Position numbers and translations under genes: made by a program
Assembly (NCBI GenBank): GCA_902728285.1
Contig: CACVBU010001379.1
Location: forward strand, 393,978-457,977
Length of the DNA stretch: 64,000 nt
From: Clytia hemisphaerica
Taxonomy: Eukaryota; Cnidaria; Hydrozoa; Leptothecata; Clytiidae
Direction of reading: 5' to 3'
In this document: positions 6,725-64,000 of the stretch, piece by piece
How the letters are laid out: each line of letters opens with the position of its first letter
How positions within the stretch are numbered: the stretch's first letter is position 1
Notes under the pieces: generated by a model
What the model was told of the DNA's origin: nothing
The model's database searches: none
The model's input: only the letters and a program-made list of their open reading frames with translations

Positions 6725-7541
6725 TTTGTTTTGTATGTTTATTACAGTATTTTAGCAATTATCTAAATGAAAGAAAAACAAATTCAAAAAAATCAACTAA
6801 CTGAGTATAACTAATACCAAGTGCCTTAACAAATGATAGGTTCAGCACTGAGAATTGAGCAAACCAGTGCTGAATTTATGAATCCATAATAGATAGAATC
6901 TTCAGACATTACTAGTTCAAAGCTCGCCAGACGAGTAATTTACAATGACCTATATTATAGTTTATAGTTGTAATTCTCATGGGTGGTCTATGTATGAAAT
7001 ATTGCAATTGAATAACTAATGAATATTCAGAAAATTGTAGAAAAAGAGCAATATATTCTTTTTAATTTTCTAGCTTCTAGCATTGATAAAAGATTTCCTC
7101 TTCTCACGGACCACACACAGACATAATCAATTTAAAGCTTCTCAAAATATTAAATTATTGTTGCTTGGTGGTCTCTGAAACCAAAGCAAAATCGTTTTTA
7201 AAATAATATTTTTTTGGTTGTATAAAATACTATGTTATTCTAAATGATATCTTGTTAATCTAGTCTAGAAGATTTTCAATATCAGTGCTACTATCCAACA
7301 ACAAAACAGTGGCAATGTATTCATAAATCTAGTTTAAAGAATCAACAAAGAAAGAGTTTAGAAATAAGTAAAAAAAAAGAAAGATAAAAGACTACTATAA
7401 ACAATAATATGAAAAATATTTTTTAGTTAGATCTTATTGAGCTAGGAAACAGTAACAGTCCAGTCCACCAATTACTGGGGAGTTGATTTTATTGATCCAT
7501 CCAGTAAAACAAGCAATACACCAAGTCCCTCATCATTTGGT
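6725..7541. other. Intergenic between NUTF2 and RP2
   Basis: AT-rich, with no recognised exon or repeat. NUTF2 ends at 7,542 and RP2 starts at 6,724 on the same strand, so this gap should hold the NUTF2 3' untranslated region and the RP2 promoter. Confidence 0.4.
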
Positions 7542-22900: not shown

Positions 22901-25900
22901 AAAAGAGTGAAAAAATATGAGCACTAGATTTGGTTTCTTGAGACATTACAACATATAAGTAGTGGAAAACCTGAATTTCGGCTCTGGGATTTAAAGGGGT
23001 TATCCCATTGGAAGAAAGTGGAAGAGTTAAATTTCTTTGGACTTATCTTTTCAGGCATATTGCTATTGGATTCACTGAGGATGGAAGATATTTGTTGACT
23101 TATGTTTCTAACATTAAGTTTCAATTATCAGACACTTCTGTTTGCTCTTATCAATATGTCCTGCATTGGTGGAAATTTGATCTTTGGAATAAACTACAAA
23201 AGGTAAGGACTTCATTGATATTTATTCGTAGAATCATTTTTGGACCTACCTCGAAGGTCCTTTAAATTGACCTGTGTCCTTCCGTCCGTCCATCTGATGC
23301 ATTTTCTCAGGATTGGCTCTTTCGAATTTTCTGATTTTTTTCACAATGATGCAAAATGATAATGCCCAAAATCTGAGAGAGCCAGATTTCAAAAACAAAA
23401 TTCTGACTGAAATGTGCCGGAAAAACTGTTTTTGGTGTTTTCTCAAGATTTCATTATCAGTTTTCCAAAACATGGTCGAGTCCAAATTTTTGAGAAAAGC
23501 TTTTTCCTGCCAGAAATACTTTAGGCGTGCAAACTTTCGCGAGCAGAAACTTTCAATTCAGCATTGCGGACGAAGTAAAACTCAGAATAAAAACATACTG
23601 GTTTAAAATATTTCGCTCTCTCTTAGAGCATCTTCAGTTTTTTTGAATAACAAAGACGTTTAACAATTATATTTAACGACGCTAGAACGGCATTACAATG
23701 ACTTCTTCAGTTTTTGACGTCACGGAACATCTGGTACACTTCTTTCGCGTATCCGTGGCAGTCTTTGTTGAGACCTGATGGAGCCAGAGTTTGGAGTCTG
23801 CACATCCATTTATCTTCGGCTCGTTCTCTTTCTGCGGAGGATGAAAAGTCACTTTCTAGGATCATCACCTCAAGGTCAGCAAAGGAGTGGTCGCGATGGA
23901 AATGTTCTGCCAACTCTGAATTTTTCGGTCTCTTTCCAATGTCGTAGCGGTGCTTTGAAAAACGCGTTGACAAGGCTTCTCCTGTGTGACCAACGTACAA
24001 CTTGTCATGGATCTTGCATCTGGCTGCATACACAACGTTCTTCGTTTTGCAGCTACCACCATTGGTTACACGTTTAGTGATACCATCTTCGTCTGCACAT
24101 GGCATCCAGCTCTCAGACACCTATCATCACTTCTTCGTCAAAACTTCAACATGGTCAAAAACGACATCACCTTATCCACCGTCTTCCCTTCAACTCCAAC
24201 AGTCGCCTTCCGCCGCCGAAAAACAATCGCCAACAAAATCGTGCGAAATGATATCTTGGAAAGACCACCACGTCAAAACACCACGAAACCGTGTGGTAAA
24301 TGCAAGCTATGCCCGAACATTGTCACCCAGTCAGAAATCACTCACAATGGTATCACTAAACGTGTAACCAATGGTGGTAGCTGCAAAACGAAGAACGTTG
24401 TGTATGCAGCCAGATGCAAGATCCATGACAAGTTGTACGTTGGTCACACAGGAGAAGCCTTGTCAACGCGTTTTTCAAAGCACCGCTACGACATTGGAAA
24501 GAGACCGAAAAATTCAGAGTTGGCAGAACATTTCCATCGCGACCACTCCTTCGCTGACCTTGAGGTGATGATCCTAGAAAGTGACTTTTCATCCTCCGCA
24601 GAAAGAGAACGAGCCGAAGATAAATGGATGTGCAGACTCCAAACTCTGGCTCCATCAGGTCTCAACAAAGACTGCCACGGATACGCGAAAGAAGTGTACC
24701 AGATGTTCCGTGACGTCAAAAACTGAAGAAGTCATTGTAATGCCGTTCTAGCGTCGTTAAATATAATTGTTAAACGTCTTTGTTATTCAAAAAAACTGAA
24801 GATGCTCTAAGAGAGAGCGAAATATTTTAAACCAGTATGTTTTTATTCTGAGCAGAAACTTTCGCGAGGACGAAAAATCGCGAAATTCACGACATTTACT
24901 TTCGCGAATTTAACGGAAAAACATTTTTCGCAAGCATAAACTTTCGCGAATCAGGACGTAAAATTGAGAATTTTCACATGAAAAATGGCTTACAGGGTCA
25001 AATACTTCTTGGATTGGCTTGAAACATTATTTGTCCTTTGACTTTTTAGTCTTTTAGCAGGCTAAAAAGTGCCATAAAAGTAAGTTACATTTTATTCAAA
25101 GTTTTACAGATTTTCTATTTTGTCAAGAATTTTTCGCGAGGATAAACTTTCGCGAATGGCCCTTATTAGAATTTTTAAAGACATTTACTTTCGCGAAAAG
25201 GGCCAGAATGCGCAAAAATCGCGAAAGTTTCTGCTAGCGAAAGTTTGTACTTCCTTTTCTATTTCCATTCTTTATTTATCATTAGGTAGGTCCAATATGC
25301 ATTACCAGATTGTGCTTGTTTTTTTTTGAAGTATTCTCTTTTTCTTTTTGGACCTACCCCGGTGGGGTAGAGGTCCTATAAATTAATCAATGTCCGTTCG
25401 TTCGTCCGTTCGTTCGTCCGTCTGTTACCAGCTTTTCTCAGGATTGGCTCATTAGTTTTTCTGATTTTTCATTTTAAACCTTCACTTTCGAATCAACTTT
25501 TCTTTCTATTTGATAATATTCTAATTCAACTCTTGAATATATTTTCAACATGCACCAAACCACTGTCTAATTCAATCAAAAGTTACACCTTCCCCCCCCC
25601 CTACAGATTATTCGGAGAGAGATTTTAAGACAAATTTTTGCAGTTTTTAAAGTCTTTTGCTCCTGCTTTTTGTTTCAGGTATATGAAGTTGAATTATTTG
25701 CAAAGGAAACAATTTCAAACGTCAGGATTCTGCGACTGATTATATTGTGGTTCATGCATCTCTTGTCAAGTAACGACTCCTTTTCTCCGACAGACTTTGC
25801 AATTAAAAACCATAGATCAACGATTATAGTTGTTATAAAGTTTCTGTATTACTCCAGGCTATTTCTCTAACTAAACACTTAATTTTTTACATATCGTAAA

Positions 25901-31900: not shown

Positions 31901-34900
31901 AAAAAGACAACCCTGTCTCAGTTTGACCCAGGCAGAAATGGATGTTGCGATTTTTGTCATCTCAAAAAAGAAGCCGTTGCATTGTTTTCCGCGCGCGTTC
32001 TATTTTGTGCCAATCAAAATGCGTCACGTCACGCATTCGAAAAAATTCGAAAATGTTGCAATCAAAACGAAAAGTGTTTCATTTGTGACTTTGGCTTTGA
32101 AAAGAAAACATGAACTCTATAGAAACTAAAATTAAAAAAATATTGTGATTATTTCATCGCAACATTTCAAACAACTTCTGGAAAAGATCGAAGAACATTT
32201 ATAAAGTTAATTAAATTGAGATATAGAAATTGAATGACTTTCTTGTCTTCGAAATTCAGTTTTCGAAGGAAGCCTTTTATCTTTATTTTTATCAATGGTG
32301 ATTCATTTTTGGACATAAAAAACTCCCAAGGATAACTAGTAAGTTTTTATTTATTTTGGAGATGAAAAATGCCAAAAGAAAACGAGAGAAGAAACAAAGT
32401 CTCAGCGATTTTGTAAGAAGAAGGAATTTCTTTTTTAAAGTAGCGCTATATAGCAATATTTAAAAATTAGGCTGCTAGTTTGCGAATCAAACTCAGCTCG
32501 AGGATTTATTTATTTTGTTGATCAATGTTAAACAAATTTTAGAACTTTGAGTGATATTTGTTATTTTTATAAGAATTCTAAACTAATTCACATGCGAAAA
32601 TTGCTTATATCCGTACGTCAATCTGAGATTTTAGAAAAGTCACACGAAACTTCAGAGGACCTGGTCGTAAGAAAATGTTCTTATAAGCTATAGGTTTATA
32701 TACTGTACATCATTTTTTTAGCATTTTTTATCTTCTTTCTCCAGGGGTATGTGGGGAAAATCGGCTCCAAATTATTATTTCTCTGCAAGCTTTTTGTGTG
32801 TAACTTCAGTTTTCACAAGCAAGAATTTTTCTGCTTCTGAAAAGTGACAAATCCCAAGAAAAATCAAAATCAAAATAACTTTTCTGTATCACTTTTTTTC
32901 TTTGTTTTATCTTTTCTGTCTTTTCAAAACAAAACATTCGAATCTTGATCAAAGCAATCGAAAGCGCATTCGTCAATATGCAATGTCTTCTTTTTTGTCT
33001 CAATCGAACGCGTGATGTCTCTTGTCCAATGAAATCGCTAGAATCTTACTTATTTATATATTGTAACGTTTTAATTTAATATTTAATTACTATATTCTTG
33101 AGAAAAAAAAATTGAGAATCTTACTGATGCGCGATAATTGTGCCTTCTCCTTGACTAAGCACATGCCCCTGTCTCACCTCCTTTATATTCTCGATATTTT
33201 GTTTATCCTTCGAAACTATAAGTTAACCTTATGATAAACATTCGAACTTCAATATTCTTAACTGACGATATCAGCTATCGACTGTCATTGAAAAATCTCG
33301 ACAGTCAATAAAAAGTATAGACACTAGATGAAACTCTAAAATGAAGACTGGAATGGACAATCGAATAGGATTTCTTCATGGAGAGGTTATGCGTCGATGT
33401 CAAATCTAGTCTTAATTTTAGAGTTCGGTGCATAAAATCAAAATAAAAGAATCCTCGGGATCGGAATGAAGTTTTGATGAGCTAAAATTGATTGTCTGAA
33501 ATTATTTTGATATAATACACCCCTTTATAACGAAAGAAGCAGAAAAAGTTTCTAAAGAATTCAAGCAGCTCCAATTTTAATTGTATAGTCAACAGCCTCC
33601 TAATTTAGAAAGGTAATCCCTATTTCTCAAAAGGTTTTCTTCCTTGCAGAAAAACAACTTAAATCATAGAAAACTCTGAACAACACCCAGTCTTTGAAAC
33701 AGGGATGTAAAATAATGAGGATTCCAAGACTAATATTTGATGGGAAAAAAGTCGATCTCGTTTAATTTTAAGATTCAGAGGTACATTGATAGAAAAATAT
33801 CTTTGTTACATCATTATAGTACTAAGACTAAGTTCTAAAGTTGTAAATAAGAATGCAAAATCTTAATGTAAATAGCAGTGGGCTATAGAGACCTTTTTTT
33901 TCAAAATTAAGTTTGCATAATTTTTTTTGGTTGGTTGGGACCCAAATAACATAAATCTAAGATATTTTTGGATATTTCCAAAAAATGGCGGTTCTCCGCC
34001 CTTTTTTATGCCCGAAATGGGCCATTTTCGGGCCATTTTGCTTGGAAAAAAAATCTAAAACCTGCTGTGTTGGTGCTACAACCATCAAATTAGGCTCAAA
34101 ATGATCCTTGGAAAAAAGTAGGATTAGAATGTAACAATTATATACCTCTGCCATATATATAAACTTAAAAAATTAGGTTTTTCGGCCAAAATTGACAAAA
34201 ATTGCGAAAAAACAGGGTTTTGCCTGGAAAAAAATCTAAAATCTGTTCTGTTTGTGCTACAAGCCTCAAATTAGGGTCAAAATATTCGTTGGAAAAAAGT
34301 AGGATTAGAATGTAACAATTATATACTTCTACCATATATGTAAACTTCAAAAAATTTGGAAATTGGGCCAAAATTGACCGAAACTGGGGAAAAAAGGGTT
34401 TGCCTGGGAAAAAAATCTAAAATCTGTTCTGTTGGTGCTATGAACCTCAAATTATACTTAAAATATTCCTTGGAGGAAAGTAGGATTAGAATGTAACAAT
34501 TATATACCTCTACCGTATATATAAATTAAAAAAATTAAGTATTTAGGCCGAGATAGACCGAAACCAGGAAGAAACTGGGTTTTGCCTGGAAATGAAACCT
34601 AAAATCTGTTCTATTTGTGCTACAAACCTCAAATTAGGCTTAAAATGTTCCTTGGGAAAAAGCAGGAATCGAATATAGCAATTACATACCTCTACCACAT
34701 ATATAAAATTCAAAAATTAGCTATTTAGGCCAAAATGGACCGACACCAGGAAAACGCTGGGTTTTGCCTGGAAATAAAACCTAAAATCTGCGCTGTTCGT
34801 GCTACAAACCTCAAATTAGGCTTAAAATTTTCCTTGGAAAAAAGCAGGATAAGAATGTAGCAATTATGTACCTCTAACCATGTATATAAAATTAAAAAAA

Positions 34901-37900
34901 TTAGGTTTTCAGGTCAAAATGGACAGAAACCGGGAAGACACTGGGTTTTACCGGTTTCTGTCCATTTTGACCTGAAAACCTAATTTTTTTAATTTTATAT
35001 ACATGGTTAGAGGTACATAATTGCTACATTCTTATCCTGCTTTTTTCCAAGGAAAATTTTAAGCCTAATTTGAGGTTTGTAGCACGAACAGCGCAGATTT
35101 TAGGTTTTATTTCCAGGCAAAACCCAGCGTTTTCCTGGTGTCGGTCCATTTTGGCCTAAATAGCTAATTTTTGAATTTTATATATGTGGTAGAGGTATGT
35201 AATTGCTATATTCGATTCCTGCTTTTTCCCAAGGAACATTTTAAGCCTAATTTGAGGTTTGTAGCACAAATAGAACAGATTTTAGGTTTCATTTCCAGGC
35301 AAAACCCAGTTTCTTCCTGGTTTCGGTCTATCTCGGCCTAAATACTTAATTTTTTTAATTTATATATACGGTAGAGGTATATAATTGTTACATTCTAATC
35401 CTACTTTCCTCCAAGGAATATTTTAAGTATAATTTGAGGTTCATAGCACCAACAGAACAGATTTTAGATTTTTTTCCCAGGCAAACCCTTTTTTCCCCAG
35501 TTTCGGTCAATTTTGGCCCAATTTCCAAATTTTTTGAAGTTTACATATATGGTAGAAGTATATAATTGTTACATTCTAATCCTACTTTTTTCCAACGAAT
35601 ATTTTGACCCTAATTTGAGGCTTGTAGCACAAACAGAACAGATTTTAGATTTTTTTCCAGGCAAAACCCTGTTTTTTCGCAATTTTTGTCAATTTTGGCC
35701 GAAAAACCTAATTTTTTAAGTTTATATATATGGCAGAGGTATATAATTGTTACATTCTAATCCTACTTTTTTCCAAGGATCATTTTGAGCCTAATTTGAT
35801 GGTTGTAGCACCAACACAGCAGGTTTTAGATTTTTTTTCCAAGCAAAATGGCCCGAAAATGGCCCATTTCGGGCATAAAAAAGAGCGGAGAACCGCCATT
35901 TTTTGGAAATATCCAAAAATATCTTAGATTTATGTTATTTGGGTCCCAACCAACCAAAAAAAATTATGCAAACTTAATTTTGAAAAAAAAGGTCTCTATA
36001 GCCCACTGCTAATGTAAATGTAAAGAAAAGTTAGATAAAATAACAAAATTTAAGGAGATTCCTTTTCCACAATTCAAAGCAAAACCTCCAATTTTTACTG
36101 GCTATCTAATTCTAGTTTCCAAAGTTGAGAAATTTGAAAGTTTTTAATCTAAAGAGCTCAGGAATTCAAAATGAGTTAGCAGCCTTAACTCTGATTATAC
36201 AGGAAAAAACTCTTCACATAAAAATTTAGAAACATTTTGTCATTGTATCAACTGCAACGCATAAATTTAGAGCAAAATCATAAAAAATAGTATCTATTTT
36301 TGACAATTTTCAAGATCTGTCAATGTCACTGGTGCAGAGAGAGAGCTGCAGAAAGTCATTTCCATGCCCAGCAACATTCATTAAATTCTTCAGAATCGAA
36401 TACAATCACGTTTCACTTTACTTTCAATCATATGTCAATTAACTTTCCACCATTTTATTCCTGGAAAATTTTCAAACAAGCGATCAGAGACCACATCCAA
36501 CAGCCAATAAAAACAATAACAAACAAACAGTTCTTCTTTCCACTGGAATAAGTGAGGATAAATTCTTCCAGGTTTCAAGCCATAACCAAAAGATATTCGT
36601 TGCCATCCCAAAGCATACCAAAAGTCCAAACCAAGTTCGTATTCGATCATCATCTATTATTAGCTAGGATCCAATTCTAAGAAATGATTTGATAATTTTC
36701 ATTCACCATGTTTACAGTTAATCTCTGAGATTCTTCAATCCTGTTATGGAAATAACCCAACAACTCTGCTGTTGTTGATGCAATAATAAAATTTCCATCT
36801 TCTTTCTCCTCCTTCCACAGATTCAGCTTATACTGCTTCTTTATTCGATTCGTTTCTTTTCAAAAAAGTTTCATCACTTTTCAAAACAAAAAAAATTCTC
36901 TCAAACAATTTTCAATATTCGAATCCCAAAATTCGAAAGTTCGAAAATCTATTTGAACTTTACCGCTCGAAGCAATGCAATGACTTCTTAAAAATCGGGA
37001 AAAGGCACAAGCGATGGAGTGCAGCTTGCCCAAAGTCACGGCAAATGCACCACGCGGAAGAGAAAATCTTGGACGGACTTTCCCGTCCAAGAACATTCGA
37101 TTCCACGGCAAAAAGTAACAGACGTTAAATTGCGATAAAAAAGCGGTTTTCGTCTAACAGGCTAGAAAGGCCTAAGCGGGCAAAAAGACGGCCACGGGCC
37201 GGTAAAAGAAAGTGAGGTCTTTTGGCCGATCGGCTTTTCAGATACTTAAAATCGCTCGGGAGTCATATTTTTTAGTCATTTTCTGGTGAAAATGGGTCAA
37301 ATTTAGTGGTTTTAATTGGTTACGCTAAACAGCCGGGATGACGCCATCCAACACCATGGAATTCGGAAATATTTGTAATAAATGATATTTTTGTGGACAA
37401 TTTATGTTTGGGAGCTTATTGTAGATTTAGTTTTGCTAAAAGAGTGAAAAAACGATTTTTGATGTTTTTTTAATGAGAAATCCATTCCTGTTTCCTTTTT
37501 TGCTGATTTCCTGGAAACGTTAACATCGACGTTATTGGATATTTCTCAGGAACGGGTAGAGCAAAAGACTTGAAATTTTCAGGAATTGTTCCTTATGAGT
37601 TTTGGCAGAGGATATAAGAAACAATTTTTCAAAAATCTCATTTCCTGGTTTTTAATCTCAAAAAATCCCCTTTTAGGTTCCAGACTCCCGGCGCAAAATT
37701 TTTTGTTTATTTATCCTCTAGCTTTCCTAAATACAAACCTGTATGCCAAATTTCATTCATCAATTATTTCTAGATCTTGTAAAAAATTACATACCCCCCC
37801 CCCCCTGGACTGTAAAACCCCTGTCGTTGGCATTAAAAATGCTTTCTTGTATTTTCATTTCATAGTTGTTTTACCTTTGTTTGAGTGTCTCGCGAGGCTT

Positions 37901-47550: not shown

Positions 47551-48229
47551 CATTAATTGGGAAATATTTTATTCTATGTATAAATGGCGAAGGCCCCTTA
47601 AATGGATTATTTTCAGAAGGAGAAAGTTTATGAATAATGGAATATTAGGAAAATATAGTAGAGAGAAATGTTCTCACGTTGACAGGCGATTGTCGAATAA
47701 TAAACAGTTGACGAGTGTGCAGCAACAGCAGCGAATAACGATATCAAAGAAAAATGTATAAAAACGACTGTATAAAAACGATTAGATTAGGTTATTTGTA
47801 AATGAATCAAATTTTTCCACTAGCTTTGGGTGCTCTTTACAGGCTTTTTGATAAGCTTACTTTGTTGTTCCATTTTGAGCTTTTTCTCGTAAACTTCACC
47901 CTCGATCACCTTTTTTTCATCGTTCAGTGACAGTGAGTTTTGAAAAATCGAGGCTTACCTGTTCGCCATTCTCAAGGATTGGGTATATTTCAATAAGATT
48001 TTTGACGGATATATGTGATCCTTAATCAGTTTTGCACGTTGATCGTGCAGGGTAAGCTCCAAACGAGTCGCAATAAGCTCAGTCTTTCTTTTTGCTTTTT
48101 GAGTTTCAATATGCTTTGAAACCGAATGTTAATCTTCTCCAGCAGGGATATTTGGGAGATCAATCCCCAAAGTTTTTTTGGATTTCTTCAGCATCACGAA
48201 ATAATAACAAAAGAGAGATATGTTACAAA

Positions 48230-48343
48230 CTATCTTCATTTTTCTCCAAGCCACTAAATCATGATTCAAAATAAATAAACAACACAAAAATTTGATTCAA
48301 ATTTTTGTGTTGTTTATTTATTTTGAAAAAGATATGTTACAAA
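48230..48343. mobile_element. Hairpin insertion with 13-bp duplication
   Basis: Copy A has GATATGTTACAAA at 48,217-48,229 and again at 48,331-48,343, while copy B has it once. The inserted 101 bp contains a near-perfect 29-bp hairpin (48,265-48,327; stem TTCAAAATAAATAAACAACA). The empty site in copy B proves the insertion. Confidence 0.75.
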
Positions 48344-48425
48344 AACAGAGGTACAAAAACACTAAAGACTATGTATTTACAAGAGTAGGAAAGTATATTT
48401 ACAAAAAACAGAGCAATAAAAAACA

Positions 48426-48680
48426 CTAAACACTTTCATCGTACGAGGACACAACAATTACTACTTCGTCATCTACAAAGTTTTGTGGTGAGCAATATCC
48501 ATCATCGTCAGATTTGTCGTCTGATATTATAATGGGTGGTACTATTGGCATGTCTTCCAAAAAATTGTCCAAGATCAAATTGTTTATAATCATCTCATCC
48601 AGCACGTGGTCCACAAAATGTTCGTACATTTGAAATACATGATCCAAATCGATATCAATTATGGCAAATGGAAACGTCAA
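48426..48680 (-). pseudogene. Acidic C-terminal relic, copy A
   Basis: An 84-residue frame with a DIDLDHVFQMYEHFVD start and an acidic SDDKSDDDGYCSP tail. It is repeated in copy B at 54,719-54,970 with small differences (SSDESDDDGYCSPENF). Position after the DDE-like relic on the minus strand fits the acidic segment that follows the DDE-like region in the 58-kb gene. No function is assigned. Confidence 0.4.
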
Positions 48681-49180
48681 GTCTAGAATGAAATCACCTA
48701 ATAGTTAATAAATAATCTAGTCTGAATTAAACTAGTTCACGCTCGATCATCTTCTTTTTATCGGTTAGTTGGCTGATAGTGAGTTTCGAGACACTCTGAC
48801 GCTTCCATAAGGTCTGTTTCAACCAGTTTGTTCTTCTCCGTCAAATCTTCGATGATAAAACTCGATTCTGAAAGCTTCTGACAAGGGATATCGTGCGATA
48901 AATCTTCCATTGAGGTGTCATCAGAGCTTGCTTTAGGGAAGGTTCTGGGTGTTTGATCAGTCTCAAGGGCACGATGGATGATCGAGTTTGTATAAAGAAA
49001 TTAAAGATTTTAGTTTGAAGGTTTTTGCAAAGTTCATAGTTATGAATTTTTAGCCTTGAATCGTCCGTAAGAATCAAGAAAGAATTCACCAACACAAAAA
49101 TATCAAACTTATGAACAATTTGAATAAATCCGTTTTTCAGAAATCTTAGTTGGTTCGTCAACGATCCCAATCAAAAATAG

Positions 49181-49483
49181 TCATGCTTTCGTGAGTCTAA
49201 AAATTAAGGGTGATACTTTTCTCCACTGGTCGAGTGACTGAGGCTCATATTTCACAAGGAGTGTAAAGTTTTCGGAAAAATCAATATCAATATAAGCTGC
49301 GTTAAATAGTTCATTAAACTCTTTGGTCAGGATCCGCTTTACTAACCGTTTATCAATGAAGTCAAGGATTGCTCTCATATAAAGATATTTTTTCACAGTT
49401 TTCAGTTTGTGTTTCAGTTCACCTTTTTTTGCTTTAGAAGGTAGACACCAACTGGTGTTATACTTTAATTGATTGAGTGCCAA
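49181..49483 (-). pseudogene. Transposase-like relic (DIDFSEN block), copy A
   Basis: The 100-residue frame carries GELKHKLKTVKKYLYMRAIL, FIDKRLVKRIL and YIDIDFSENFTLLVKYEPQS. These match GEIKEHLKTV, FMDKMLIHFI and DLDIDFSENLTLPVKYQAQS of the gene at 58-63 kb. The aspartate of DIDFSEN is a candidate first catalytic Asp. The frame stops right after the block, and downstream motifs are not readable in one frame. Confidence 0.7.
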
Positions 49484-50300
49484 AAATTAAAAAAATGTGA
49501 GACATAAAATTTCACCTATATTTCCCTTGTGTAAGCCACATTTTTGCCCACTTAACAAATTGTAAGTCTCAAATAAAAAATGTAAAAAAATTTCTTGGAA
49601 GGGTAAGCCACATGACCAGTATGTAATGAATAGCTAATTTCCTCAGCTTAACCATCAAAGCAATCCTAAGTGTAAGCCACATAATGTTCTCAAGTTATGG
49701 TCAATTTAGTGGCGGGCAGTAAAAAAGTCACAAAAAGGGGTTCATTTTTGATTGGGATCCAACCCAAATGCTATTAAGACTCCAATGACAAATAGACATC
49801 GGCGTTTCCCTCTAGTTTTTTAAGAAATTTATGATTGTCATGAAGAGAAGGTGATCTATATTCTCTGCCATTGTTGTAGCGGTACATCTTGGTGCTAAAA
49901 ATGAAAATTGAGATTGCAGAGATTGTCGGTACTCTAATAGAAATTAGATCTTGTATAGAGGGATCCTCAAGTTGTGAATTATTTTTCTCGAGCAAGGAAT
50001 GAGTAGTAGAAAGAGGTAGATATGAATTCTTGAGTGTTGAAATGTGTTAGGAGTAGAGATTATACTCAATGAAATGCGTGACTTTAAAGATTGGAAAGAT
50101 TCAGTGGTAGGCTTAGGTTTGGAGAACGTACGGTCCAGAGATAAAAAGTCTAGTCATGTGGGTTTGTGTTGGAACGTTGGAATAGTGTTATAGTGATAAT
50201 AGTATACGAAATGATAGAATTGTTTTAAATTTAGCTGGAATGTTATTGTTATTATAATTTAGTGTTTCAAGTGTTAAACTTTTAAAAATAGAGAATCATT

Positions 50301-50592
50301 CCGGGGGGGGTACTAGGGCAAGATGGGTTACGGGGATGCTCCGCTGGTCAGGGTACCTACCTTTTTTAACATTCACGAGTCCCAGGTAGGGTCGCAAAAA
50401 CACCAAAATAGAAAAATCAGTCCCTCGTAGGGTGCCTATTTTTGGAAAATTTGGGGAAAAAGTAGAAAATTTTGGAATTTCAGTCCCATTCAGGGTCACT
50501 TTTTTCGCAAATTTCAAGTCCCACGTAGGGTCCATTTTTCGAACCTCAGCGGAGCACCCCCGTCGGTCGACAAGGGTAGTACCCCCCCCGGG
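50301..50592. mobile_element. Poly-G ended MITE, 8-bp target duplication (hAT-like)
   Basis: GAATCATT occurs at 50,293-50,300 and 50,593-50,600, while copy B (near 56,648) has a single GAATCATT, so this is a proven insertion of 292 bp. The ends are CCGGGGGGGGTACTAGGG and TAGTACCCCCCCCGG. An 8-bp duplication suggests hAT. Relatives are at 15.7-16.5 kb and 31.7 kb. The interior has repeated GTAGGGTC-type words. Confidence 0.85.
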
Positions 50593-50852
50593 GAATCATT
50601 TGCGTTCTTTCAGCGTGTTAAAAAAAGGTGAGGGAGTGGTCGTCAGATTTTCTTTGGAGGTAGATTGTGGTGTGTAAATGCTGGATTTGGTATTGGTCTG
50701 ACTGGGGGTTGCCATAGTATCTATTTCTGGTGTTCGCTGGTCAATGGTGGTTCGGACTGTCATTTTCTAGGATTGTTGCAATTTGAGATTGTGGGTTCTT
50801 GTATAGTGTTTTGGATTTCGTCTTTTGCGTGTTGGTTGTTGAGTGGTGGCTG

Positions 50853-51213
50853 CAATGCCGGACAAAAGGTTGTAGACAAATGAAATTTCAGTGAAAAATG
50901 ATGAGAAATAGAGCATAATGACTCTTCAATGTGTCTGAAAGGGATGGAAGTTAAGAAAAACACTTTTGAAGTCGTTGCATTGCTTTTGAATTGCTTTTGA
51001 GGGAACCACAAGCAAAAAACCAGCGTTTTGATACTGGTGTAAACCAGTTAATCAAGCCCTTGTGGTTTGCCCTTGAGGTTAGACTTTCAAAGACTTTGAA
51101 CAGCTTTGGATAGGTTTGGAAAGCACCCAGAGCCTCTTGGGAACTTGTCTTTGATCGATATTGAAGTATTTAGCAAATATTGCAGAAGTCTACAAACCTT
51201 TTGTCCAGCATTG
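50853..51213. mobile_element. MITE with 2-bp TG duplication
   Basis: Copy B reads straight across (GGCTGAGGG, about 56,910). Here 361 bp with ends CAATGCCGGACAAAAGGTT and AACCTTTTGTCCAGCATTG intervenes, bordered by TG on both sides (50,851-50,852 and 51,214-51,215). A 2-bp non-TA duplication with CAATG ends does not fit Tc1/mariner. The superfamily is unclear. Confidence 0.8.
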
Positions 51214-51735
51214 TGAGGGTTGCTATATTGAGCCATGTATTGTCGATTTTTGTTTTTTTCTGAGGATTGTGTGGTATGGATCTTCGTTTAAGTGGGTATT
51301 GTCATGGCTCCCTTCTCCTTTCTTTTGAAGTAGATTGTGGTTGTGGTAGATTGTGGATGTATTGGTTCTTTATACGAGGCTGTCTCCTCTTCGTTTTGAA
51401 TTGGATTTGGATTTGGATTTGGATTGGGGTTTGATTTGGGATGGACAAGTTTGGCCTTCTTTATGCAAATAAAATTTTTAATTGCTTCTACTCCATTTTT
51501 AAGATTCAGTACCAGATGTTTGATCTCTTCATTTGATTTCTTAAAAAATAAGTTAGCTCGTTGGTCCCAGCATGAAGTTAAAAACGACGCGGACTTCATG
51601 GTCGGATTTGTTTTCGGTTTTATAGTACTCTCCTTCAGGTTGCTAAATTGATTGAAGTAGCGTAGCGATCGTAAAAATGACTCAGTATGAAATTAAACAT
51701 GTTACAAAGGTGAGGCTCTGACCTGCCAAACTTAC

Positions 51736-54045: not shown

Positions 54046-57000
54046 TAGGAAAATATAGTAGAGAGAAATGCTCTTACGTGGATAGGCGGTTGTCGAATAA
54101 TGAACAGTTGACGAGTGTGCAGCAACAGCAGCGAATAACGATATCAAAGAAAAATGTATAAAAACGACTGTATAAAAACGATTAGATTAGGTTATTTGTA
54201 AATGAATCAAATTTTTCCACTAGCTTTGGGTGCTTTTTTTTACAGGCTTTTTGATAAGCTTACTTTGTTGTTCGATTTTGAGCTTTTTCTCGTAAACTTC
54301 ACCCTCGATCACCTTTTTTTCATCGTTCAATGACAGTGAGTTTTGAAAAATCGAGGCTTACCTGTTCGCCATTCTCAAGGATTGGGTATATTTCAATAAG
54401 ATTTTTGACGGATATATGTGATCCTTAATCAGTTTTGCACGTTGATCGTGCAGGGTAAGCTCCAAACGAGTCGCAATAAGCTCAGTCTTTCTTTTTGCTT
54501 TTTGAGTTTCAAACCGAATGCTTTGAAACCGAATGTTAATCTTCTCCAGCAGGGATATTTGGGAGATCAATCCCCAAAGTTTTTTTGGATTTCTTCAGCA
54601 TCACGAAATAATAACAAAATAGAGATATGTTACAAAAACAGAGGTACAAAAACACTAAAGACTATGTATTTACAAGAGTAGGAAAGTATATTTACAAAAA
54701 ACAGAGCAATAAAAAACACTAAACACTTTCATCGTCCGAGGACACAACAATTACTACTTTGTCATCTACAAAGTTTTCTGGTGAGCAATATCCATCATCG
54801 TCAGATTCGTCTGATGATATTATAATGGATTCTATTGGCATGTCTTCTAAAAAATTGTCCAAAATTAAATTGTTTATTATCATATCTTCCACCACGTGGT
54901 CCACAAAATTTTCGTACATTTGAAATACATGATCCAAATCAATATCAATTATGGCAAATGGAAACGTCAAGTCTAGAATGAAATCACCTAATAGTTAATA
55001 AATAATCTAGTCTAAATTAAACTAGTTCACGCTCGATCATCTTCTTTTTATCGGTTAGTTGGCTGACAGTGAGTTTCGAGACACTCTGACGCTTCCATAA
55101 GGTCTGTTTCAACCAGTTTGTTCTTCTCCGTCAAATCTTCGATGATAAAACTCGATTCTGAAAGCTTCTGACGAAGGAGAGAGGTCTCGTGTGATAAGTC
55201 TTCCATTGAGGTGTCATCAGAGCTTGCTTTAGGGAAGGTTCTGGGTGTTTGATCAGTCTCAAGGGCACGATGGATGATCGAGTTTGTATTAAGAAATTAA
55301 AGATTTTAGTTTGAAGTTTTTTGCGAAGTTCATAGTTATCAATTTTTAGCCTTGAATCGTCCGTAAGAATCAAGAAAGAATTCACCAACACAAAAATATC
55401 AAACTTATGAACAATTTGAATAAATCCGTTTTTTGAGAAATCTTAGTTGGTTCGTCAACGATCCCAATCAAAAATAGTCATGCTTTCGTGAGTCTAAAAA
55501 TTAAGGGTGATACTTTTCTCCACTGGTCGAGTGACTGAGGTTCATATTTCACAAGGAGTGTAAAGTTTTCGGAAAAATCAATATCAATATAAGCTGCGTT
55601 AAATAGTTCATTGAACTCTTTGGTCAGGATCAGCTTTACCAACCGTTTATCAATGAAGTCAAGGATTGCTCTCATATAAAGATATTTTTTCACAGCTTTC
55701 AGTTTGTGTTTCAGTTCACCTTTTTTGGTTGTAGAAGGTAGACACCAACTGGTGTTATACTTTAATTGATTGAGTGCCAAAAATTAAAAAAATGTGAAAC
55801 ATAAAATTTCCCTTGTGTAAGCCAAATTTTTGCCCACTCAACAAACTGTAAGTCTCAAATAAAAAATGTAAAAAAATTTCTTGGAAGGGTAAGCCACATG
55901 ACCAGTATGCAATGAATAGCTACTTTCCTCAGCTTAACCATCAAAGCAATCCTACGTGTAAGCCACATAATGATCTCAAGTTATGGTCAATTTAGTGACT
56001 GGCAATAAAAAGGTCACAAAAAGGGGTTTATTTTTTATTGGGATCCAACCCAAACGCTATTAAGGCTCCAATGACAAATAGACATAGGCGTTTCCCTCTA
56101 GTTTTTTAAGAATTTATGATTGTCATGAAGAGAAGGTGATCTATTTTCTCTGCCATTGTTGTAGCGGTACATCTTGGTGCTAAAACTGAAAATTGAGATT
56201 GCAGAGATTGTCGGTACTCTAATAGAAATTAGATCTGGTATAGAGGGATCCTCAAGTTGTGAATTATTTTTCTCGAGCAAGGAATGAGTAGTAGAAAGAG
56301 GTAGATATGAATTCTTGAGTGTTGAAGTGTGTTAGGAGTAGAGATTATTATACTCAATGAAATACGTGACTTTAAAGATTGGAAGGATTCATAAAAAGTC
56401 TAGTCATGTGGGTTTGTGTTGGAACGTTGGAACAGTGTTATAGTGATAATAGCATACGAAATGATAGAATTGTTTTAAATTTAGCTGGAATGTTGTTATT
56501 ATAATTTAGTGTTTCAAGTGTTAAACTTTTTAAAATATATATTAAACTTTTTAAAGTTTTTTAAATAGTCACGTAGCAAAATGTTGTATGCTGCTTGATT
56601 TAATTTGTGTCAGTTTGTGTTGTATTATCTTGTTGATGTATTTTAGAGAATCATTGCGTTCTTTCAGCTTGTTAAAAAAAGGTGAGGGAGTGGTCGTCAG
56701 ATTTTCTTTGGAGGTAGATTGTGGTGTGTAAATGTTGGATTTGGTATTGGTCGTTGGCTGACTGGAGGTTGCCATAGTATCTATTTCTGGTGTTCGCTGG
56801 TCAATGGGGGTTTGGACTGTCATTTTCTAGGATTGTTGCAATTTGAGATAGTGGGTTCTTGTATAGTGTTTTGGATTTCGTCTTTTGCGTGTTGGTTGTT
56901 GAGTTGTGGCTGAGGGTTGCTATATTGAGCCATGTATTGTCGATTTTTGTTTTTTTCTGAGGATTGTGTGGTATGGATCTTCGTTTAAGTGGGTATTGTC

Positions 57001-57117
57001 ATGGCTCCCTTCTCCTTTCTTTTGAGGTAGATTGTGGTTGTGGTAGATTGTGGATGTATTGGTTCTTTATGTGGCTGTCTCCTCTTCATTTTGAATTGAA
57101 TTTGGATTTGGATTTGA
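54046..57117 (-). mobile_element. Degenerate transposon copy B
   Basis: Direct duplicate of 47,646-51,424 without that copy's three insertions. Minus-strand relics in order: 55,780-55,478, 55,391-55,131 and 54,970-54,719. About 110 bp near 56,533-56,645 is present here but absent from copy A. The two copies are close to identical over most of their length. Confidence 0.8.
55478..55780 (-). pseudogene. Transposase-like relic (DIDFSEN block), copy B
   Basis: Same 100-residue frame as 49,181-49,483 with a few substitutions (for example KLILTKEF for KRILTKEF). It keeps YIDIDFSENFTLLVKYEPQS. Both copies share the same stop, so the frame was already broken before duplication. Confidence 0.7.
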
Positions 57118-57285
57118 TCCTGGTCAAAAATAGTGTGACATTTTTTTTATTTATAAAAAGTGTCAAATTTCAAGTTTTGCCAATATCTTTTTTTCTACCG
57201 CTTCTTTTGTCTTGATATTTTAGGAGGCTGTAGGGCTTGGGGCTGGGAACCCGTCAATATAACTATTTGTGTTATATGAGCCATA

Positions 57286-57961
57286 TTTGAGGTTGACAGG
57301 GCAAAAATGACTCTTTTCAGAAAATGTCATCCTCAAAAATAGGACTTAACAAGAGAAAGCGGAAAATGCTGAAAAAAAGCCGCCGAAAGGTTGCTCCTAG
57401 TAAAAAGTGTTAAAGGTACAAGGTTCACTTGTTATATGAACCTGTTTTGAGGTTGACAAATTGACGATATTTCAAAATGAATTTTGCAGTTTCTTGTCCT
57501 GTTAACCTCATAAATGCCTTTTTATACTTTCAAAATGGGATTCTATGTTTGCTATGTAATTTCGAAGGGTTACAAATCTGCGTAGCAGGTTAAAGGAGCC
57601 AATTTTGAGGTTGACATTGCTCTAAAATCAGAAAACATATCATGTGGGCAAAAGTAATTACAAATCGATGATGATTGGTTTTCATATTGCACAGAAAGAT
57701 TCTTTAACTAATAATAAGATATAATTAAATGTTAACAAAACATTTTTGAGGTTGACATCCTCAAAATAACCTAAAAATGATCAAGTATCTCCAAAACATT
57801 GACATATATAATGAAAATGCACTATCAAAATATTATGAAATAACATACTTAGGAACAGAGTGCAAGTACAAAATGAACTTGAAAACTTATGCTAGTAAAA
57901 ACTATTGAACTTAGGAATTAAACTTTCAAGACTAGTCACCATAAAGTTTTTGAGGTTGACA
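57286..57961 (+). repeat. Left subterminal array of TTTTGAGGTTGACA
   Basis: Exact or one-off copies at 57,286-57,298 (last 13), 57,445-57,458, 57,603-57,616, 57,744-57,757 and 57,948-57,961. Inverted variants lie at 57,325-57,338 and 57,500-57,513. At 57,744 the motif overlaps its own inverse. Spacing is roughly 150 bp. Confidence 0.8.
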
Positions 57962-58201
57962 AGATCAGTAACAAATAGCAGCGTCTGATGTCCTTAAACT
58001 GGCAACAAATATTTTCACTACTATTGAAAAAATGCGGAAAATTATCCAAAATAAACAAAATGTTTTAACTATTGGAAAATAAGATAAAGCAGTAGGAACT
58101 ATTGGTCTGTAATCTAAAACAAATCAAAGACTAAAAAGCAGAACATACTATCTGGAAATACCCCAAAAACACTAAATGAAATATTGCTACAGTACAGATT
58201 T

Positions 58202-61200
58202 TTAAGTTGTTTTAATCCGATCCATATAGTACAAGATATCTGTCAAGTCTTTGTTTTCCAATCTAAAGCCTTTCTTTGTCTCCTGAAATGGAACAAATGG
58301 ATAGACAACACTCTCTCGATAAAAGTATGTTATTGTTTTGGAAAGTTTAAACAACTGACAGTTTTTATTTGTAAATTGACGTTCAAGGAAATGTCCCTGG
58401 AGATGTTCCATACCAGCAGGAATTGTATTTCCATAGTTGTCAGAAATATTATAATCAGTTACTGCACTTTCAACAACCTTGATGAACCAGACAATGTCAT
58501 CAGACTTCTCACTAGCAGCAACTGCAACAACTGAACCCTCTGGCATAAAATCTTCCAAATCTTCTCCGTCCCCGTCACCACCATCATCATCATCTTCTTC
58601 AGCTCTCTCATCATCAAGATCATCATCTACTATTTCAGGAGCATTTTTTGATCGAAGAATTCGCGGATAGATTTCACTTGCAGATATAGTAAATTCTCGA
58701 AAGAGAGCACATGATCCAATCTCAAGCTCACATTCCTTGCAAATACAAAGCCTGTCAGCTGCTTTGAAATATCCAAGACCTTAGGATCAACTTCTTCAAT
58801 CATGTAAGGAACTGATGTGGAATCATCGAACTTCTCATGCAAAAAATTGATAATATCATTTGTGTCAAGGATAACTCGTCCAGCTGCTATTTCCCTTCTA
58901 ACTGCAACCTTCACGATCCCACCGACATGGTCCACTTCCCCCTTGCCGTGTCCCGAAACGCTATAGATTCTGATGACCATAGTGTTTAGTTTTGTTGCTA
59001 GCTGCTGCAGGTCATAGACATGTTTATTCGATTTGTATTGACAACGACAATTATCACTCTCGATGATGATTACTTTGTTTCTTAGATCTATCCCATCGAT
59101 CATTTTGTCAATGCAAAGTTTGACAAAAACTTGATCATGTTTGCGGTTGTCGGAAAAGTATGGATGGTATGTCTTTTCTCCTTCAGCCCAAACAATTCCA
59201 GAATGGACTGTTACCTGCGTATAGGACCAGTGCAGGGATTGTGCTTGGTATTTCACAGGGAGTGTCAGATTTTCACTAAAATCGATGTCAAGGTCAACTG
59301 AGTCGAACATACTGTAAAAATCTTTAATTGTTGACCGGTAATTTTTCAGTTGATTTCTATGATGTATAAAATGAATAAGCATTTTATCCATAAACTTTAT
59401 CAAGTATTCTGCATTGGAAGGTGTCTGGACAGTTTTTAAATGCTCTTTTATCTCCCCACGTTTGTTTTTAACCTCAACCTTCTGAAAATGCATGAAGGGA
59501 ATCGTTGTATCAAGATCACAATCCTTGAAGCAGGCTTTGATACCATTCCATTTGTTGAGGATTTCAGCACACACAGATTTTTCATTCGGAGTACAGTCCC
59601 AGGATATGTATGTTGTGGTCTCCTTTTTGCAATCAGCATAAAGGTGTTCAAAAAAAGAATCGTAACCATCAAATGGAACTGAAATTTTCAATTTACCAGC
59701 CAAATCAGCAATAGCTTTCACACACCACCTACCATGCAAATGGTATTTACAACAGCACATTTGGAGATCCTTGCTTGTGGTGTGTCTTACATAGAAAGGT
59801 TTTAAAGCAAAGAAGGTCCCATAGGACACCGTTGGGTTACCTTCCCTGAGGTATTTGAGGTATAGATCTTTGAATGGCTTTTCTGCAATACGATGAATGC
59901 ACTGGTAAAAGTTTCGATTTCTCTGCTGGATTATGATGACACTGGACGGAAGCTTCTTATCAAAGGAGAAAATGGACTAACAGCAGACCCAAAGGAACAA
60001 AGTGAAATAATAGCTACATACTTCAAAGGAATTTTCTTCAAAAATCAAGAACAACCAACAATCGTACCACCAGCACCTATGCTAGCACCGTTCACGTCAG
60101 TCGAAATCAACAAAGCTGTTAAGAAAATGAAACGAAACAGAAGCCCAGGATGAAATACCAATTGAACTGATAAAATTTGCTCCAGAAACTATCCACCAAC
60201 AGATAGCCAACATCTATAACAACATAGCCGAAACAGGGAACATACCAAAAGAGATCACGTACGGTATCCTTAAACCCCTGCAAAAACCCAACAAAGCAAA
60301 AGGACCACCATCAAACTTACGACCAATCGTTCTACTTTCATCACTACGAAAAATCCTTGCAGCTTGCATTATCAACCGAATCAGAGACCGACTTGACGCA
60401 GAAATACCACTCTCTCAAGCAGCCTACCGAGCGAACAGATCCACAACCGAGCACGTCTTCGCGGCAAAACTTGTAATTGAACGGACTATAACATCAAAAT
60501 GTGAAGCCGTTCACTTAATACTTCTTGATATGAGCAAAGCGTTCGACAGTCTTAATAGAAACAAACTGCTGCATGACTTGCAATCTACCATCTCACCAGA
60601 CGAACTCCACATTATCGCAGTCCTCCTTAATGTATCGCTCAGCGTCAAATGCAACCAAACTCTAAGCTCTGAGTTCGCAACTGACACCAGAGCACCACAA
60701 GGAGACTGTGTAAGTGCTAACGAATTTACGTACTACCTAGCAAAAGCACTACACCCGATGAAAAACCACCAAATACCCAACCATCCTGATGCACTTCCTA
60801 CTGTACCATCCATTCCTGTTGACCATCTAACAGACCACAATTACGCCATTGTCACAGAAAAAGAACAAATCGATATTGAAATGGAGTATGCTGACGATAT
60901 CGGGAAAGTAACTTCAGACTATCGCGCACTGCAAAAGTTTAAGCAGACCGTCCCAACAGAACTAGAAAAACGAGATCTAGTAATAAATCAGGACAAAACG
61001 GAACAATTTACCATCACAAGAAATAACAACGAATGGAAAAAGTGCAAATATCTCGGCAGTATGCTTTATACATCAGAAGACATCAAAAGAAGAAAAGGAA
61101 TATCGATTTCAGCTGCCAACAAATTACGAACGTTGTTCTGTCATAAAAAGTTGACTACACAAACAAAAATGTCAGCATTCACGACCTACATCGAACCGAT

Positions 61201-63351
61201 ATTTCTGTATAACTGCGAGCTGTGGAGTTTAACAACCTGCCAAGCCGAAAATTCCATTGATGCATTCCAAAGAAGATTGTTGCGAACTTTCGTGCTAAAT
61301 GTGAGCTGGCCAGAAATCGTGAAGAATGCCGAAGTGTATCAAAAGACCAACGCGGTAAAGTGGAGCAAACGTATCAAAAGTAGAAGACTGAAGTGGCTGG
61401 GAACTGTATTACGAGCAAATAGTTCAACACCTATGAAAAAAGCACTCGAATATGCCAACACTAAGTACCAAAGACCGCGAGGGAAACCAACTACAACTTG
61501 GCTCAGTGTTGTCAAAAATGACCTTAAAACATTAAATATTGAATGGGACGACGCAATAGAAATTGCAAAAAACACTAAGGAGTGGAACATTATCATAAAT
61601 CGTTGATAGTTATACAACTTTTTTCTACTGCTTCTTTTCGATAATTATCGACAAAGCTGATAATGCCTCAATTCCTTTCGTCGGGAGATATTTTATTATA
61701 TATTTTTATTCTTTGTACCTACCGGTAATGTAATCGTTTTTTACGGAAAGACCGAATTGAATTGAATGAATTGGACGGAAATTCTAGACCATTTTGCACT
61801 CTTGGTTTCTCGTTTAATCTTAACTTTGAAGTTTGATTAGAGTTGGTGGATTGAATAGTATTCTCATGCCAAAATTTCCAAACATTTTCTCTGGTTTCTA
61901 ATGGGAGAAGCTTTCTACCAGCTGATGTAGGTTTCCTTGTGAAACGAAATTGGTCAAGGATATTGAGTTTTCTCAAAGCAAGCTCAAGAACATCGACTTG
62001 ATCACATTGCTCCAGTTCCATACTTTTGATGAATTCACTTACATCATCAGCCAGACGACTCTTTCTTTTTCGAGTTTTCGGGGTCATAGGGTCAGCAATA
62101 GTTGTATTGGAAGTATCTTTCGATGGTGTACCAGCGATGGATTGCTGTAGCAAAAGTTGAAATATGTCAGTGAGTATGGGTATTTAATTTAAAAAAGTAA
62201 GAGGTTTTATATTCTAGTGACCTTGGTTGAACGATACAAAAGCTGTGCGCCTCTCTTTAATTTTACTAATCAAATAAATGACAGCTAGTATATACTCCTG
62301 TAAAATCAAATTGTACCTTTTTTCTAAACCTGACTGGAGTTTCACAAGCTAACTCAACATCCTCAATGTTACTCGATTCCTCATCTGTTACATCCTGTAG
62401 AAATTAAAATTTGGTACTTAACTCAAAATACATGACAACGAAAATCTAGATAACTAGTGCCTTCTTAAATGTCTAAACATTTACCTGTCTTTCAAAATCG
62501 ACTTGTTTGTTAGTATGCACGATAACACTCGACTCCTTGACTTGTTTATCCTGTAGAAATATGTAAAAAATTAGAGTTAAGCTGTAATGTAAAAAAGTAC
62601 ACTACTCTGAGTTTCGTGCTACCTGCATTTGTCAATTGTACAAAAAATTGATATCAAAATAACTATAGTGCCTATAATGAGTATAAATATTTACCTGACT
62701 TTCAAAATTGACTTGGTTCTCATTAGTTTGCTCAATAACACACGTCTCTTGAACTGATAAAACCTCATCCTAAAAATGAAAATATAAAGCTTTAACATAC
62801 GGACAATTCTAAAAGATTGCTTACTAACGAGCTAACCAATAAATTACTTCACGATCATACCTCATTAACAGGAATAAATGCCATTGAAACATCTGCCAAA
62901 GAGTATTCTTCCTCAAGTTCGAGATTGTTCAAGTTGTTACCGTCTGTATAGTCTGTAATATTTATATTTAAGTTCGAAAATCCTTTCTTCTTGCATATCT
63001 TAACGTGTGCAATGAAATGATCAATACGCTGATATTTCTTGTTGCAAAACTGGCAAGAGTGGTCCATTTTCGCATGTGATTTTAGATGACGCTGGAGACC
63101 ATTTTTCCTGTGGAATTCTTTGAAGCAAATATGACATATCAAACTTGTTTTTCGTACTTTCAATTCACAATTTCTAGTATGTCTATCATGGTTATCTTTC
63201 CTGCTACTCTCTTTTCCACAGTTTTCACAAATGAAGATCTTTTTGGAAATCCCACAAGAACTGTTAACATGTCTTGATTTGCTTGCCTTGTTTTAAAAGT
63301 TAATTTGCATTTGCCACATTTATACACTTTATTTTCTTCCTTTTTATTCAT
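58202..63351 (-). pseudogene. Zinc-finger plus DDE-like transposase, spliced, inactivated
   Basis: Exons: 62,861-63,351; 62,695-62,769; 62,485-62,550; 62,317-62,394; and 62,144 downward, all with GT-AG borders in phase 0. Exon 1 encodes four C2H2/C2HC fingers (CGKC, CENC, CHICFKEFHRKNGLQRHLKSH in part, CQFC). Exons 2-4 are short, each starts with Asp, and they resemble each other (QVNFESQ, QVDFERQ). The last exon has a TRKRKSRLADD basic stretch, then, beyond the LINE, FFALKPFYVRH, a CCCKYHLHGRW motif, DIDFSENLTLPVKYQAQS, VIIIESDNCRCQYKS and SGHGKGEVDHVGG: probable first and second catalytic Asp and a His/Glu/Asp-bearing third motif of an RNase H-like fold. CICKECELEIGSC and an acidic tail follow. 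Lesions: a frameshift after finger 1 (near 63,285), one near 58,783, and the LINE. Confidence 0.7.
59895..61770 (+). mobile_element. LINE insertion, 5'-truncated, nearly intact reverse transcriptase
   Basis: Inserted in the coding exon of the minus-strand transposase. One frame (59,893-60,151) ends at RNRSPG with a stop. A one-base shift restores DEIPIELIKF, and the frame is then open from 60,149 to 61,606. Motifs in order: PSNLRPIVLLSS, AAYRANRSTTEH, LLDMSKAFDSLNR (A), APQGD (B), EYADDI (C), KCKYLGSML, and a C-terminal AFQRRLLRTF...RRLKWLGTVLR domain. The endonuclease is missing. The tail near 61,750 is GAATT-rich. It reads as a young non-LTR element of RTE/CR1-like affinity; the clade is uncertain. 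Exact ends are not fixed. Confidence 0.85.
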
Positions 63352-63666
63352 TTTACTGTATCTGAAAAAAGTAAAAAGATACCTCTGAAACAATACAAAA
63401 TCTTAAAAATCAAAATCAGTCATTTCTGCAATAAAAGCAAAACTAGAATGATTGAATTGCTAAATCTTTTGAAAACATTTAAAAAGCTGCACTACAACGA
63501 CTTCTATTGAAAAACACTGCAATGACCTCCAAAAAAGAAAAAAACTGCAAACAATCTGAAGTAAAATCAAACTAAAAATTTGGTCCAGTGATAGCAATCA
63601 AAAACTTGGAAAAACTTCTTCTTTTAGCCTGAAAACTATTTTACCTTAGTAATCTGATAAGTCTTT

Positions 63667-63842
63667 TGTAAACCTCAAAAGTTGCTCATACAATAAAAGT
63701 TACCCTACTTACAGTTCAGGCACAACCCATACTTACCTTTTGAATCGAGAAAAACAATAACTTAATTCAAAAAGTCATTATTACAACCAAAAACTTGTGT
63801 AAACCTCATTTTTGGGCCTCTTAACTAGAGTCAACCTCAAAA
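63667..63842 (-). repeat. Right subterminal array (inverted)
   Basis: TGTAAACCTCAAAA (63,667-63,680), TGTAAACCTCATTT (63,798-63,811) and GTCAACCTCAAAA (63,830-63,842) are inverted versions of the left-side TTTTGAGGTTGACA. The array may continue past the window end. Confidence 0.7.
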
Positions 63843-64000
63843 TAGCACCTGTAATAGCAAACAGCAATCTTTCAATAATATTGATTGACTATTAGTAGTG
63901 TTTACTTTCAATCAAAACTTGACTCAAAGAATTATAAAAAACATTGTTATTATCAAGATTGGAGACCTTTTAATTGATATTGTCTTACCTACCTAATAAG

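Follow-up and report, generated by a model that had tools for sequence, protein, structure and literature searches.

A decayed DNA transposon in Clytia hemisphaerica and the spaced subterminal words of its sister families

How related transposons that share a genome distinguish their own ends from sister ends is, to our knowledge, an open question. It is raised by an element at the edge of a 64,000-nucleotide stretch of the Clytia hemisphaerica genome (contig CACVBU010001379.1, C941:393978-457977 in the 417 Mb that we searched), hereafter the window, for which a first-pass annotation made from the letters had proposed a new DNA-transposon family. We consider it highly probable that the element, now decayed, is one copy of an autonomous cut-and-paste DNA transposon encoding a transposase of the three-aspartate (DDD) type, that zinc fingers of this transposase bind spaced words near the element ends, and that fingers and words evolve together.

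Termini, target site and genomic copies

Comparison of 20 stretches of the host genome placed the transposon at window positions 57116–64519 (7404 bp including a nested retrotransposon); its part inside the window, 57116–64000 (minus strand), thus continues past the window end, and the bounds first assigned to it, 57250–64000, were too narrow on both sides. The element is delimited by 18-bp terminal inverted repeats, GATCCTGGTCAAAAATAG at 57116–57133 (plus strand) and its partner at 64502–64519 (minus strand), and by a target site duplication ATTT at 57112–57115 (no strand assigned) and 64520–64523, the right-hand member of each pair lying past the window end. When the transposon flanks were joined, they matched an uninterrupted copy of the entered repeat within the window, near 51,420. 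This paralogous empty site lies at 51414–51424 (plus strand) in the first copy of the repeat, with the junction near 51420. The two repeat copies, 47646–51421 and 54046–57116, are 93–97% identical in aligned pieces, and the second is the transposon's insertion site; a segment of the first (49229–49435, minus strand) is 46% identical to positions 161–240 of the transposase query (E 1.7e-5). A long terminal inverted repeat within the window was rejected as a candidate, its best left–right alignment scoring 30 compared with up to 37 in 100 shuffles; the actual right end is beyond position 64,000.

The same architecture recurs elsewhere in the genome. All 14 copies in the fetched stretches whose two ends were recognised by script have a target duplication of exactly 4 bp; L013 and L014 have one flank in common, so at most 13 of them are independent. 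Non-autonomous relatives of 1.2 kb, with similar ends, account for twelve of the 14. Among the six unscored stretches, five (L011, L012, L015, L018 and L026) each lacked a recognised end within the stretch; in the sixth, L021, one end contains an additional base and the duplication reads, by eye, GGGT/GGGT. The terminus pattern GATSCTRGTCAAAAATAG has 58 exact matches in the genome, compared with 0 for its reversed control. Multiple copies, inverted repeats, 4-bp duplications and the empty site together confirm that this is a DNA transposon, and it was the extension of the contig and the alignment of copies, both advised by the first-pass annotation, that defined the 18-bp termini and the 4-bp target duplication.

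The transposase core is found at no fewer than 103 places in the genome, including three same-family copies (92–100% identical) and sisters ranging from 63% (short pieces) down to 21%. Several sister transposases retain open frames of more than 700 codons; four frames of 716–730 codons without stops (C128:1243973, C25:17978, C277:31133 and C594:3658831) are possibly from recently active elements. The sister elements are 5.0–5.6 kb long. We refer to the window's family as A and to four of its sisters as B, C, D and E419; the transposase cores of these five are about 45–54% identical, and the sister termini are similar (B, GATCATGG; C, GATCATAG; D, GAACACAG; E419, GATCACTT). Among the sister stretches, L059 and L060 have a 4-bp target duplication, the duplication of L062 is imperfect and the end bases of L061 (family F) are mismatched; no terminus was found for G, H618, C215 or C901. 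The 666-aa C. hemisphaerica protein P0016 is found, without a single difference, within the open frame of L062. Just outside the family D element, L062 carries at 5885–6713 an adjoining frame with a PHD-finger-like start.

Transposase gene and catalytic core

As first proposed, the window copy carries a spliced minus-strand gene with C2H2/C2HC fingers and three small phase-0 exons, and its exon borders are AG/GT. Exon 1 (62861–63351, minus strand) encodes the fingers, of which three are legible in the window and four in copy L010, and has a frameshift near 63286. The mini-exons 2 (62695–62769, 75 bp), 3 (62485–62550, 66 bp) and 4 (62317–62394, 78 bp) follow on the same strand; the 3′ ends of the first two resemble one another (82% over 45 bp, intron bases included), so these exons may be internal duplicates. 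The last exon is split into a first part (61781–62144, minus strand) and a second part (58202–59951, minus strand) that encodes a Cys/His region, the DDD core, the Cys motif and acidic stretch of the first-pass annotation, and a C-terminal BAH-like domain. Between the two parts lies a 5′-truncated non-LTR retrotransposon with an RVT_1 domain (59952–61771, plus strand), which is flanked by the 9-bp duplication TGGACGGAA (59943–59951 and 61772–61780) and is absent from copy L011; excluding it and one copy of TGGACGGAA restores the frame. Relative to L010 and L011, the window copy also has a 91-bp deletion at about 58770, a region across which the frame of L011 is continuous. With the nested retrotransposon, the deletion and the exon 1 frameshift, the window copy is dead.

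The introns and the long conserved open frame could also suggest a transposase domesticated as a host gene. We regard this as extremely improbable: it is contradicted by the repeated copies with termini and target duplications and by the empty site, and the window copy bears a retrotransposon in an exon, a frameshift and a deletion.

The series DIDFSEN, ESDNC and GHGKGEVDHVGG, already noticed in the first-pass annotation, is present in the window protein and strongly conserved across transposase relatives. In the predicted model of a relative, the three aspartates of this series coincide with catalytic positions of an RNase-H fold, which supports the suggestion that they are catalytic. The codons of these predicted catalytic residues lie on the minus strand at 59281–59283, 59053–59055 and 58930–58932; all three assignments draw on this model and on conservation, the third also on a sister-profile alignment. 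Glutamate as the third catalytic residue was rejected: it is Pro in P0019 and Val in a sister family marked by the motif ATSHGKGVVDG, and is replaced in five further sequences of the 126 aligned, some of which are broken off there. Because the ATSHGKGVVDG family carries Val in place of this Glu, which lies two residues ahead of the third Asp, we take the core to be a predicted DDD triad on an RNase-H fold.

A check of the core against known transposase folds and profiles, another step advised at the outset, gave the RNase-H fold in the relative's model and no match of the window core to Pfam transposase families at E up to 1; nor did the relatives scanned match such families, among the matches listed (one of these scans listed 25 of 37 families, counting families matched by any of 54 members). 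A sequence search of solved structures returned none related to the core and one chance row for the C-terminus, and a fold search of viral models gave no match at E 0.001. The C-terminal part may adopt a BAH-like fold; neither BAH profiles nor solved BAH chains matched its sequence. A prokaryotic or viral origin was rejected: 114 and 41 pattern matches were obtained in viral and genome contigs, of which none was confirmed, and there was no phage match.

Subterminal words, their spacing and the zinc fingers

Inverted arrays of the 14-bp motif TTTTGAGGTTGACA bound the gene on both sides, as had been described. With at most one mismatch the motif occurs eight times in the window, always within the two transposon flanks; with at most two it gives 14 hits (10 in the flanks) compared with a mean of 1.54 and a maximum of 5 in shuffled sequence. 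Across the genome it occurs 94 times, compared with 6 for the reversed control. The left array (57285–57961, plus strand) has five inward sites at 57285, 57445, 57603, 57744 and 57948 (spacing 160, 158, 141 and 204 bp), together with one outward site with one mismatch and two with two mismatches. The right array starts at 63667–63842 (minus strand) with oppositely directed sites at 63667 and 63829, to which a 9-base core adds a weaker one at about 63799, and continues with eight further sites past 64000.

The sister families have arrays of their own words: GAGGTT(G/T)AC in A, GTGGCTTAC in B, GAGGTTAC in C and D, and TTGACTTAC in E419, with the differing cores GAGGTT, GTGGCT and TTGACT. Distances from the element end coincide between families. 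On the left, coinciding words lie at 174, 334 and 492 bp in A, 175, 335 and 491 in B, 175, 332 and 491 in C, 175, 332 and 487 in D, and 174, 334 and 490 in E419. On the right, which was compared in A–D, they lie at 81, 205, 221, 344, 375 and 506 bp in A, 81, 206, 223, 345, 376 and 504 in B, 79, 219, 328, 359 and 501 in C, and 80, 205, 219, 358 and 513 in D. Every family has further word sites that do not coincide, and in A–D no word lies beyond 1.3 kb from either end.

Three left slots common to A–D within 7 bp were matched in none of 20,000 random placements and in none of 20,000 rigid rotations, and two common right slots in 0 of 20,000 and 1 of 20,000, respectively, for words and mismatch limits chosen after inspection of the data. 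Pairwise rotation of one array gave about 0.008, the floor of the test, for A–B, A–C and B–C on the left; on the right it gave 0.007 for A–B and 0.08 for both A–C and B–C. E419, which was read after the other families, matches the three left slots, as do 6 of 100,000 random sets. The same spacing recurs in I870 with a shift of about 8 bp, next to a poor terminus in which 9 of 26 bases differ. The C215 word GCGTGGGTC was rejected as a spaced array, being a tandem repeat with steps of 17–21 bp (one of 37); a tandem array of GCGTGGGTC with steps mostly of 17–21 bp adjoins a sister transposase at L037 2795–2962.

The words can be set against the fingers through the C2H2 code, in which the third, second and first base of a triplet are contacted by helix residues −1, 3 and 6, respectively, and the order of the fingers runs opposite to that of the triplets. 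Where the first triplet of the word is GAG, residues −1, 2, 3 and 6 of finger 2 are RDNR (A and D) or RENR (C); where it is GTG, they are RDSR (B, F and G), RDVK (H618) or RDVR (I870); and where it is TTG, they are RWYS (E419). Residue 6 of finger 1 is Arg in A, B, C, D, F, G and I870 and Lys in H618, all with a second triplet that starts with G, and Asn in E419, with a second triplet that starts with A. The words of H618 and I870 rest on 3–4 sites each, and finger 2 of I870, whose first Cys is spoiled, was taken by eye. Left out of the comparison were C853 (two equally common words), L046 (RDSK; again two equally common words), L039 and L041 (both RENR; the stretch examined showed no enriched word), C901 and C327 (lacking a clear word or a canonical finger 2), C893 (a word and no fingers found) and loci with neither fingers nor a clear word. 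J430 (RDNR, GAGGTT), close to D, and K882 (no fingers found), close to B, were not counted separately.

Not every observation fits a match of fingers and words at constant spacing. Residue 3 of finger 1 fails to separate GTT from GCT, being Ser with both, and finger 3 misfits the words under the code. In F, the word occurs 13 times outside the register of A–E419, with the bases next to the element ends mismatched. The nine families with both fingers and words are not nine independent cases, although more than one change of finger and word is likely: in the tree, which has several weak inner nodes, A groups with F, G, H618 and I870 (support 0.96), apart from C and D. Finally, the left flanks of A–B and A–C are 0.05–0.07 more identical than shuffles, terminal repeat included, as would be expected if the shared spacing came from common ancestry of the flanks. 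The period of about 158–160 bp is near 15 turns of DNA; it is also near the nucleosome scale and could similarly reflect a nucleosome-related feature of the DNA in place of protein binding. Either origin seems unlikely to us, since in the other 10 of the 12 flank comparisons among A–D the excess is 0.03 or less, or negative, and since the words change in step with the finger residues.

Similar spacing between families, absence of words from element interiors and the covariation of word letters with finger helix residues instead support, at the level of sequence comparison, the earlier suggestion that the arrays are transposase-binding sites. We propose that C2H2 fingers 1 and 2 bind the arrayed words, finger 2 reading the first triplet and finger 1 the second. 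The fixed spacing, about 158–160 bp between the first left sites, would align several transposase molecules and bring the two element ends together; the DDD core would then cut at the GATC-type terminus and insert this end into target DNA at a 4-bp stagger, and the BAH-like domain may contact chromatin. Between families, fingers and words would have changed together with the spacing retained.

We read the differing words and the constant register as probable family-specific addressing. A further-reaching idea, which we hold tentatively and rate somewhat short of even, is that these families form a lineage with an address code, in which each has its own finger key and a word repeated at set distances from both ends, the register (about 175, 333 and 490 on the left, about 80, 205 and 220 on the right) is under selection while key and word turn over as a pair, and sisters are not cross-mobilised, perhaps as a superfamily of its own beside the ATSHGKG transposases. 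Sister families in one genome would thereby avoid moving one another's copies. Protein and DNA appear to change together in a constant geometry, which would amount to a recognition code whose use of spacing could be probed by swapping fingers and words, and would give a large unnamed set of animal transposases a firmer footing.

Elsewhere in the window, a perfect inverted repeat at 33873–36011 (1,067-nt arms, 5-nt centre, tandem units of about 181 bp) may be either real or an effect of assembly. Another inverted repeat, at 23581–24852 with 506-nt arms, overlaps an open frame with a weak GIY-YIG match. A minus-strand frame at 5702–6751 has a strong TBCC domain and in this resembles the protein RP2, and an open frame at 41131–42207 matches a rhodopsin-type receptor barely above the Pfam cut-off.

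Relatives and known transposon systems

A query built from another animal transposase motif found the ATSHGKGVVDG sister family, with 728 proteins at E up to 1, of which 120 were listed (for example, from Asterias, Lottia, Holothuria and Homalodisca); those listed are 'uncharacterized' or unnamed. A profile of 26 of these proteins is homologous to the window family over 445 columns (hhalign probability 99.9, E 1.4e-34) and all three Asp align, whereas the two are 18% identical, Val replaces the Glu two residues before the third Asp and none of the three members scanned matches a Pfam C2H2 finger. Of ten relatives scanned, a single one (P0080) matches PF25273 (DUF7869), at E 2.6e-4 and under the gathering score, whereas the window protein has no match. 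In the open-licence literature we found no account of the window transposon family or of a BAH-bearing DNA transposase, and HGKG together with transposon and transposase in no paper. That the family was undescribed before is nevertheless not proven, because its sister family is large and present in many animals and because a DDD triad with a 4-bp duplication fits the definition of the Sola superfamily.

Sola elements are defined by a DDD triad and a 4-bp target duplication. The window family, with a predicted DDD triad and 4-bp duplications other than TTAA, agrees with this definition, which was the basis of the comparison. We lean slightly towards membership in Sola (Sola1 or Sola2 type) and stop short of assigning the family to it; membership would leave the array spacing and the finger match as the sole new points; such membership is compatible with the proposed working mechanism. 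An excerpt of PMC10294476 gives a mean of 5445 bp for the long Sola1 elements of bivalves, similar to the 5.0–5.6 kb sisters.

Target duplications measure 7–9 bp in hAT, MuDR and P elements (8 bp in hAT), and Ginger or retroviral-type integrases are defined by a match to Pfam rve. The duplications scored here are 4 bp, and rve is absent from the matches listed for the window core, P0004 and ten relatives. Excerpts of PMC9587614 describe a C/DxxH motif between the second D and the last E of hAT, MuDR and P transposases; by eye, the window protein has none between its second and third Asp. Duplications are described as TTAA-specific in Kolobok (excerpt of PMC9587614) and piggyBac (excerpt of PMC5199201), and none of the 14 scored here is TTAA. 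The same part of PMC5199201 gives 3 bp for Academ and TA for Tc1/mariner; here, 14 of 14 are 4 bp, not 3, and none is a TA duplication. A parallel in principle is the hAT transposase Hermes, several protomers of which attach to subterminal repeats through their N-terminal zinc fingers (excerpt of PMC10368747). Hermes uses BED fingers, whereas the window family has C2H2 fingers and a spacing that persists from family to family as the word varies.
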